This document shows positions 1 through 3,697 of a DNA stretch of 41,032 nt, piece by piece; position 1 is the first letter of the stretch, and every line of letters starts with the position of its first letter. The translations under genes were made by a program, and so were the position numbers. Source of the stretch: an uncultured Alphaproteobacteria bacterium (GTDB lineage: Bacteria; Pseudomonadota; Alphaproteobacteria; HIMB59; GCA-002718135); NCBI GenBank assembly GCA_902512415.1, contig CABXJB010000004.1:1-41032 (forward strand). The letters run 5' to 3'. The notes under the pieces were generated by a model, which worked only from the letters and a program-made list of their open reading frames with translations, was not told the DNA's origin and did no database searches.

Positions 1-569
1 AGTTTATTTTGATACAAGAGTGGTAGGGTGTTCATCATTGTTTTTTTACCAAGATTTATAAGATTTAGAGTTAAATCATCGCTGTACATGTTTTTATCAA
101 GTAAAAAACTCTCCTGCATGAGAATATCTCCTGCATCTAGTTTTGGAGAAATGTTAATTATGCTGATTCCTGTTTTCTCATCACCTGCCAACAATGCATG
201 CTCTATAGGAGCCGCCCCTCTCCATCTAGGTAATAAAGAAACATGAATATTAATACATCCATATTTAGGAATATTTAATAATTGTGTAGGTAAAATTATA
301 CCATAGGCAACAACAATAATTAAGTCTGGATCTAAATGTTTAGTTTGCTTTATAACTTTATCATCAATTGTAGTGGGACAATAAAGCTCTAAACTATTTT
401 TTTTTGCTATTTGATGTACTTCACTCTCCTCAATACACATACCTCTATTTTTTTTTCTTGGAGGCTGTGTAAACACACCAACTATATTTAAATTATTTTC
501 AATCAAAGTATTTAAATGTTGAGCAGCTATATTAGGTGTGCCCATAAAAATTATTTTTTTATCATTCAT
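1..569 (-). CDS. fmt: methionyl-tRNA formyltransferase, partial (C-terminus beyond window start)
   Basis: Reverse-strand reading from ATG at 569 gives MNDKKIIFMGTPNIAAQHLNTLIENN...VVAYGIILP...GCINIHVSLLPRWRGAAPIEHALLAGDEKTGISI, a typical Fmt formyl-transferase core; directly upstream of/adjacent to def. Absent from the ORF track because it is truncated. Confidence 0.95.
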   Translation of the reverse strand, partial: MNDKKIIFMGTPNIAAQHLNTLIENNLNIVGVFTQPPRKKNRGMCIEESEVHQIAKKNSLELYCPTTIDDKVIKQTKHLDPDLIIVVAYGIILPTQLLNIPKYGCINIHVSLLPRWRGAAPIEHALLAGDEKTGISIINISPKLDAGDILMQESFLLDKNMYSDDLTLNLINLGKKTMMNTLPLLYQNK

Positions 570-1688: not shown

Positions 1689-2012
1689 TTAAAAAGGTAA
1701 TTTCATTCCTGGAGGTAGTGGTAATCCACCTGTAACCGACTTCATCTCTTCTTGCGCTGCTACCTCACCTTTTTGTTTAGCATCGTTAATAGCAGCAACG
1801 ATTAAATCTTCTGTTATCTCTTTATCTTCAGGTTTAAGTAAACTTTCATCGAGATTAATTCTTTTTATTTCTCCTTTTGCAGTAGCAATAACTTTTACAA
1901 CACCGCCTCCAGAGACTCCTTCAACTTCAATAGAATTAAGTTTTTCTTGTGCATCTGCCATTTTTTTTTGGAGTTGTTGAGCTTGCTTCATCATATTGCC
2001 TATATTAACCAT
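1689..2012 (-). CDS. YbaB/EbfC family nucleoid-associated protein
   Basis: MKQAQQLQKKMADAQEKL... and GGLPLPPGMKLPF C-terminus; located between dnaX and recR. Confidence 0.95.
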   Translation of the reverse strand: MVNIGNMMKQAQQLQKKMADAQEKLNSIEVEGVSGGGVVKVIATAKGEIKRINLDESLLKPEDKEITEDLIVAAINDAKQKGEVAAQEEMKSVTGGLPLPPGMKLPF

Positions 2013-3697
2013 TATACCTCCTGTTGCTTTTCAGTATCAGTTTCGTCCAATGTTTCATCAATAGTATCTGTAATATCAGTTATAGAATGAATACTCAAAC
2101 CTGGAAGAGTCTCTAAAATTTTTTTTATTTCTGGATGATTTTTCATAATTTTTATTTCATTCTGTTGATTGACCACATCTTCTTCGCTCAAAGAACTACC
2201 TACATTGCTATCTGATGAATGAATTTGCCATATTCTCCCGGTCCACTTTGAAATAAGTTTTGCTACATTACGATTAAAGTGTGGGTCCCTTATAGATGAA
2301 GTATTAATAGTAACTTCACCTTCTTTAAATGAAATTAATTTTACTGAATTATATAACTGAGTATGAAGCAATGCCTCTCTATTCTTATAAAAATAATCTA
2401 CAAATTGTCTAAAATTAGAAATATGTACTAACAAATTATTTGACATTTCATTCAAATTCGATGAATCAAAATTATTCGTATTACTTTTTATACTATTTTT
2501 TTTTTTAACTATTATGTCTTTAGTTTCTGATTTAGCTTGATTAATTTCTCTTGTAGGATTTTTCTTATTTGGTTCTTCTGGATGAGGATTATTACTTATA
2601 TAAATTAGTCTTATAATTATCATTTCCCCATGCTGATATAGATGAAAGCCATTTTGTAATTCTTGAAAACCTTTGAAAAGTACTTGCCACATCATACTAA
2701 GAGAGTTCATTGATAGTTGATTGGCAAAATCATTTCCCTTTACTCTATCTAGCTCAGGAATGGAAATATCGTTTTTTATATCTGGTGAAATTTTAATTTG
2801 AGTGATGGAATGTACTGTATTTAATAATTCTTCAAAAACCATTAAAATATCGGCTCCAGAATTATATAAGTCTCTAAATACAGCTAATGATTCAGAAGCT
2901 AAACCTTTACTTATATGTCCAAGAAGATCATAAATTTTTCCTCTATCTGCAAGTCCTAACATATTAGTGACTGTCTTAGCAGTAACAGTTGTGTTGTTAT
3001 TTATAATTGCTTGATCTAATAAACTTAAAGAATCTCTAACAGAGCCATCACCCGCTCTTACTAAAAGAGCAATTGCATCATCATCTATTTTCACTTTTTC
3101 TAGTTCTGAGATTTTTTTAAGATGTTGGCTTAAATTTTCCGACTCAACTCTTTTAAGATCAAATCGTTGACATCTAGATAAAATCGTAACAGGAATTTTT
3201 TTGACCTCGGTAGTAGCAAAAATAAACTTAACATGTTCTGGAGGTTCTTCTAAAGTTTTTAGTAAAGCATTGAAGGCGCTTTTTGAAAGCATATGAACTT
3301 CATCAATAATAAATATTTTAAATTCACTATTTACTGGCTTGTACTTGACGTTATCGATAATCTCCCTAACATCATCAACTCCAGTTTTACTTGCAGCATC
3401 CATTTCAATAACATCTAAATTATGATCAGATCTGATTGATTTACAGGAATCACAGTTTCCGCATGGTTCACAGGTATTTACTTTCTTACTCTCGCAATTC
3501 AAGCTCATAGCAATTAATCTTGCAGTTGTTGTTTTGCCAACCCCGCGCACACCTGTTAACAGATAAGCATTTGCAATTCTATTACTCGTAATTGCATTGG
3601 TTAGAATTTGAACTAACGTTTCTTGTCCTATTAAATCAGCAAATGTTTGAGGTCTGTATTTTCTTGCGAGTACTTTATATTCTATATTTTCAGTCAT
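2012..3697 (-). CDS. dnaX: DNA polymerase III subunit tau (and possibly gamma)
   Basis: YRPQTFADLIGQ, GVRGVGKTTTARL Walker A, Cys4 zinc motif, DEVHMLSKSAFNALLKTLEEPP. Confidence 0.97.
   Translation of the reverse strand: MTENIEYKVLARKYRPQTFADLIGQETLVQILTNAITSNRIANAYLLTGVRGVGKTTTARLIAMSLNCESKKVNTCEPCGNCDSCKSIRSDHNLDVIEMDAASKTGVDDVREIIDNVKYKPVNSEFKIFIIDEVHMLSKSAFNALLKTLEEPPEHVKFIFATTEVKKIPVTILSRCQRFDLKRVESENLSQHLKKISELEKVKIDDDAIALLVRAGDGSVRDSLSLLDQAIINNNTTVTAKTVTNMLGLADRGKIYDLLGHISKGLASESLAVFRDLYNSGADILMVFEELLNTVHSITQIKISPDIKNDISIPELDRVKGNDFANQLSMNSLSMMWQVLFKGFQELQNGFHLYQHGEMIIIRLIYISNNPHPEEPNKKNPTREINQAKSETKDIIVKKKNSIKSNTNNFDSSNLNEMSNNLLVHISNFRQFVDYFYKNREALLHTQLYNSVKLISFKEGEVTINTSSIRDPHFNRNVAKLISKWTGRIWQIHSSDSNVGSSLSEEDVVNQQNEIKIMKNHPEIKKILETLPGLSIHSITDITDTIDETLDETDTEKQQEV

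Follow-up and report, generated by a model that had tools for sequence, protein, structure and literature searches.

A conserved A-tract in the linker of an alphaproteobacterial dnaX is a candidate site of programmed slippage at the gamma/tau boundary

Introduction

Why cells need two forms of DnaX, and how these forms are made, is still debated. In Escherichia coli, the ribosome shifts to the −1 frame on the heptamer A_AAA_AAG within dnaX and meets a −1 stop immediately. In Thermus thermophilus, RNA polymerase slips on a run of nine A's, yielding mRNA that is variable in its number of A's, and the gene has stops in both shifted frames (PMC5009743). Antonov et al. (2013, PMC3711429) describe a two-ORF type of dnaX, in which frameshifting makes tau and a poly-A run (7 to 10 A) marks the gamma/tau boundary. 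In Caulobacter, short DnaX forms arise from one gene through ClpXP processing, a proteolytic route that requires no slippery sequence (PMC5422525). This is the only alphaproteobacterial case that we found in the searched literature. A search of the open-access literature, with subscription papers and supplementary figures outside its scope, returned no prior report of dnaX slippage in Alphaproteobacteria.

Here, we analyze an A11 tract in the dnaX gene of an uncultured alphaproteobacterium (HIMB59; GCA-002718135). The tract lies in a 41,032-nucleotide stretch of contig CABXJB010000004.1, hereafter the window. A sequence-only reading of this DNA had proposed that the tract directs programmed production of a gamma subunit. 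We compared the run, the variation of its linker, and the nearby stops among the eight closest genomes, and find that the proposal is supported.

Results

The tract lies between the clamp-loader domains and the tau C-terminal domain

The window dnaX gene (positions 2012 to 3697, minus strand) encodes a DNA polymerase III tau subunit of 561 amino acids (TIGR02397, E 4e-132). Domains I to III (ATPase and collar; 2570 to 3697, minus strand) are covered by Pfam matches of AAA type and to DNA_pol3_gamma3 that reach residue 376, with domain III spanning residues 238 to 376. The tau C-terminal domain PF12362 (DUF3646; 2084 to 2419, minus strand) spans residues 427 to 538. The A11 tract (2496 to 2506, minus strand; T11 on the plus strand) falls in the linker between domain III and PF12362, where it forms codons 398 to 401 (K-K-K-N) of a coding strand that reads GTT AAA AAA AAA AAT AGT ATA. 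One additional A would give four lysine codons and then, directly past the run in the −1 frame, TAG (2493 to 2495, minus strand), for a product of 401 amino acids. One A fewer would give K-K-K-I-V followed by TAA in the +1 frame (2488 to 2490, minus strand) and a product of 402 amino acids. Sequence, ORF, and Pfam matches all agree with the position, frames, and shifted stops that had been read from the letters. The tract is also the longest homopolymer of the window, the runners-up being one T10 and several A9 and T9 runs. A small SRP RNA gene (RF00169; 3701 to 3794, minus strand) lies directly upstream of the dnaX start codon and shares its strand with dnaX and the two genes that follow it (ybaB-like and recR-like).

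Among the described systems, this arrangement is most readily compared with that of T. thermophilus: tau is the zero-frame product, an uninterrupted run of at least nine A's follows the clamp-loader domains, close stops lie in both shifted frames, and no stimulators were found. It differs in run length (9 to 12 A's in the window clade versus 9), in belonging to an unrelated phylum, and in its host, which is AT-rich and whose genes commonly contain A9 runs; the window is known from DNA, whereas Thermus mRNA is known to vary in its number of A's. Because PF12362 is in the zero frame, the window gene is not of the two-ORF type, for which tau is not the zero-frame product.

We consider it likely, on the sequence comparisons that follow, that the tract programs slippage by one machine or another, yielding a gamma-like DnaX. 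That RNA polymerase is the machine that slips at A11 is, on the same comparisons, an evenly balanced proposition. Under it, polymerase slipping on A11 during transcription would add A's to the mRNA or leave some out. Transcripts that stay in frame would encode full-length tau of 561 amino acids, and those off by −1 or +1 would reach the near stops and encode a gamma-like clamp-loader subunit of 401 to 402 amino acids. This predicted short form would contain domains I to III whole and lack the tau C-terminal domain. The tract, its location between domains, its stops, its conservation, and its recurrence in the class are seen directly in the sequences; we infer slippage itself, polymerase as its agent, and a short form that works in the clamp loader.

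The run and its stops persist while the linker diverges

Of 61 genomes from the genus and order, 56 yielded dnaX-type matches. The eight closest genomes comprise the window genome and the seven nearest in dnaX (78 to 84% identity); these are related to one another and are not independent observations. In all seven, AAA AAA AAA occupies the same columns of the alignment, within runs of A9, A10, A10, A10, A11, A11, and A12. The 58-column linker is otherwise nearly saturated with change: no more than five columns are invariant, among them the three of the tract's lysine triplet. The expectation that the homopolymer would be kept while its linker varies is therefore borne out. Interruption of the run by AAG in close relatives, which had been named as evidence against slippage, was looked for and is absent from all eight genomes, the lysine codons of the tract being AAA in 24 of 24 cases (86% of lysine codons are AAA and 14% AAG in these genomes). 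AAA choice alone was set aside as too weak a line of evidence for the close clade, since 14 of the 29 invariant lysine columns of dnaX are all AAA.

Stops close to the run, in both shifted frames, are likewise kept in all eight genomes, never more than five codons away. The −1 stop lies within two codons in seven genomes and five codons away in the eighth (range 0 to 5), and the +1 stop lies within three codons in all eight (range 2 to 3). The residues after the run vary (NSI, IGI, VDL, IDL, NNL, VEL, and VNL), and both stops persist. Both near stops occur together at 7% of all codon boundaries and after 14% of runs of at least seven A's. With the peptide held fixed, codon resampling yields both stops with a probability of 0.1 to 0.5 per genome, and of zero for the genome with its −1 stop five codons off.

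These figures bear on the alternative that no programmed shift takes place. An A-run would then arise by default in a lysine-rich linker of a 30% GC genome with 86% AAA usage, KKK would be a protein motif, and out-of-frame stops would be expected to be common in AT-rich DNA. The peptide alone gives a run of at least A9 with a probability of about 0.68 per genome, A9 runs are common in the window, and the other subclade of the genus has A7 to A9 only. Against this stand the gene-specific excess of long runs, the loss of comparable A11 tracts from two other genes, and the marking of the same dnaX zone in far less AT-rich genomes, some of them with tau in the −1 frame (all described below), and we regard the absence of any programmed shift as improbable.

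Long A-runs are confined to dnaX among the compared genes

Run length by itself was rejected as evidence. The 30% GC genome has 15 distinct A/T tracts of at least 11 in 925 kb, several of them inside ORFs, and about 0.7 such tracts are expected per 41 kb. In the compared genes of the window genome, codon shuffling predicts about 1.0 run of at least A11, and one is observed. The significance of the A11 tract therefore comes from its position, its stops, and its conservation, and not from its length. Runs of 11 or more A or T were also seen in ORFs of contigs C6, C10, C19, and others of the window genome; on C19, for example, a sugar nucleotidyltransferase-like gene has A13 and an epimerase-like one A12. 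It is possible that such genes are phase-variable or tolerant of slippage.

As controls, we used the 21 window genes with orthologs in the eight close genomes. Seven runs of at least A10 occur in the 41,032 codons of the 21 orthologous genes, and all seven are in dnaX, in seven of the eight genomes. Codon shuffling predicts 2.9 such runs in dnaX, and none of 300 shuffles reached seven. In the remaining 36,525 codons, 5.4 such runs are expected and none occurs, which indicates that long runs are avoided everywhere except in dnaX. Runs of A9 are not avoided in the same 21 genes (22 observed versus 22.9 expected by codon shuffling).

Two other in-gene A11 tracts of the window genome, in a tlyA-like and a mutT-like gene, are broken in every readable relative. 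Among the seven runs of at least A9 in other window genes for which orthologs are available, that of fmt alone (methionyl-tRNA formyltransferase; A9 at 448 to 456, minus strand) stays at A9 or longer in all genomes, as dnaX does, being kept in six of six close genomes. Retention of a run is therefore not unique to dnaX, and in fmt it probably reflects protein-level conservation of the motif PRKKNRG.

Polymerase or ribosome as the slipping machine

The 401-residue product could also come from the ribosome. By the mechanism of E. coli dnaX, tRNA-Lys would slip back one base on an in-phase A_AAA_AAA and translation would end at TAG. The window gene shares with that of E. coli the place of the site, a −1 stop directly downstream, and tRNA-Lys UUU. 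No tRNA-Lys other than UUU was seen in the incomplete window genome (G000), in G019, or in G020; the same holds for the sister genome G037, which is complete and had 30 of its 35 tRNA loci checked. This would suit ribosomal shifting. Two lysine tRNAs, suggested to be why the Thermus type avoids a ribosomal shift, are a correlate of that type, although not a strict requirement of it, and they were not seen here.

Other features of the window clade are less easily reconciled with a ribosomal shift. Its tract never contains AAG, so that the E. coli heptamer A_AAA_AAG does not occur; its run length is variable; and its +1 stops are kept as well as its −1 stops. In E. coli, A_AAA_AAA is less prone to shifting than A_AAA_AAG (PMC5009743). 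Moreover, neither of the stimulators of the E. coli site was found in the window clade or the sister family. Neither clade has a conserved Shine-Dalgarno–like element, the words AGGA or AAGG occurring only in isolation, in three genomes. Shuffled controls gave z-scores near 0, and RNAalifold found no shared stem at the site in either clade. A large z-score for downstream structure in the close clade was disregarded, as it reflects controls with almost no spread, together with a weak stem that lies some 100 bases farther on. Without stimulators, and with a pure run of variable length and stops in both frames, slippage by polymerase is favored over slippage by the ribosome for the window, and we judge a ribosomal shift there to be rather unlikely. 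Two observations count against polymerase slippage: A9 runs are not avoided in the eight close genomes, and one of these, G026, has only A9 in dnaX. Slippage at A9 may be weak in G026 (cf. PMC1088944).

The genus and its sister family

Conservation within the genus is partial. In the second subclade, 17 of 18 dnaX genes keep A7, A8, or A9 in the linker with a −1 stop at most one codon on; the other, L031, has A7 runs only and no near stops.

The sister family presents the E. coli heptamer itself. In all 21 of its genomes, the site reads GAA AAA AAA AAG, which is A10 combined with A_AAA_AAG. The run is followed by TCT or CCT and then by GAA or AAA, so that in every genome the −1 frame has TGA or TAA as its second codon, and the +1 stop drifts between 3 and 17 codons away. 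The third lysine codon is AAG in 21 of 21 genomes, although AAG makes up 19% of lysine codons, and the sole other all-AAG column lies near the end of the gene. A protein motif does not explain this invariant AAG, which is a further point against a run kept by default, and the fixed heptamer and −1 stop speak for ribosomal shifting. Antonov et al. reasoned that a fixed direction of shift favors ribosomal frameshifting and a free direction favors transcriptional slippage (PMC3711429). Judged from sequence, the window clade seems suited to slippage either way and the sister family to a −1 shift.

The same zone is marked across Alphaproteobacteria

We surveyed 158 further alphaproteobacterial dnaX genes, examining a 26-codon zone immediately beyond domain III, 240 to 265 codons downstream of the DEVH motif. 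Fifteen of these genes have a run of at least A9 inside the zone. In the subset with a GC content of at least 0.40 (139 genes), all ten runs of at least A9 are in the zone, compared with 3.1 expected, and none of 200 codon shuffles reached ten. One Bartonella dnaX gene has A_AAA_AAG, and its second −1 codon is a stop. Two genes of GC-rich genomes, L120 (Maricaulis) and L150 (Hyphomonadaceae), have G_GGA_AAG followed by CC TGA, again the second −1 codon, at the gamma/tau boundary; we note this as a candidate −1 site. Sites of these kinds add to the case for ribosomal shifting.

In five genomes, the zero frame of dnaX encodes gamma and ends after domain III, and the −1 frame encodes PF12362 (E 3e-13 to 2e-26). 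Three of these two-frame genes, L248 (genome G065), L251 (G194), and L252 (G197), have A9 or A10 in the overlap, and their zero frame ends just after the tract. They match the two-ORF type of Antonov et al., and with the tau domain in the −1 frame, a frameshift is needed for tau.

Proteolysis offers another account of short DnaX. If ClpXP-type cleavage of tau made the gamma forms, the A-run would be incidental. This route is established in an alphaproteobacterium (PMC5422525), and the majority of GC-rich alphaproteobacterial dnaX genes lack a slippery site in the zone, in line with it. It leaves the retention of the tract, its stops, and the two-frame genes unexplained, and we consider it very improbable as the explanation for the window, although it could coexist with slippage. 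The sequence-only reading had cited proteolysis in Caulobacter; given the recurrence of A9 to A10 tracts and the sister-family heptamer, Alphaproteobacteria as a whole probably do not follow that pattern. The same reading had suggested that A11 would be a separate solution within Alphaproteobacteria. Slippage as that solution is supported; its peculiarity to this organism is not, as A9 to A10 runs are found where domain III ends in many families of the class.

We tentatively suggest, with somewhat less than even confidence, that programmed slippage at the gamma/tau boundary is ancient in Alphaproteobacteria and widespread among them. It may have been rebuilt as an A-run read by polymerase, as A_AAA_AAG or G_GGA_AAG read by the ribosome, or the other way round, the −1 frame then encoding tau, and lost in GC-rich groups such as Caulobacter, where proteolysis serves instead. 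Two sister families with small marine genomes seem to arrive at one product by way of different slippery sequences, and A9 to A10 stands at the same spot in roughly one of every ten alphaproteobacterial dnaX genes surveyed. A switch among polymerase slippage, ribosomal slippage, and proteolysis thus becomes testable inside one class. Standard annotation should be read with caution for such dnaX genes, as it lists tau alone (or gamma alone).

The other two two-frame genes, L249 (genome G159) and L250 (G114), have no long A-run in the overlap. Their candidate shift sites are a G-run in L249 and C_CCA_AAG in L250.
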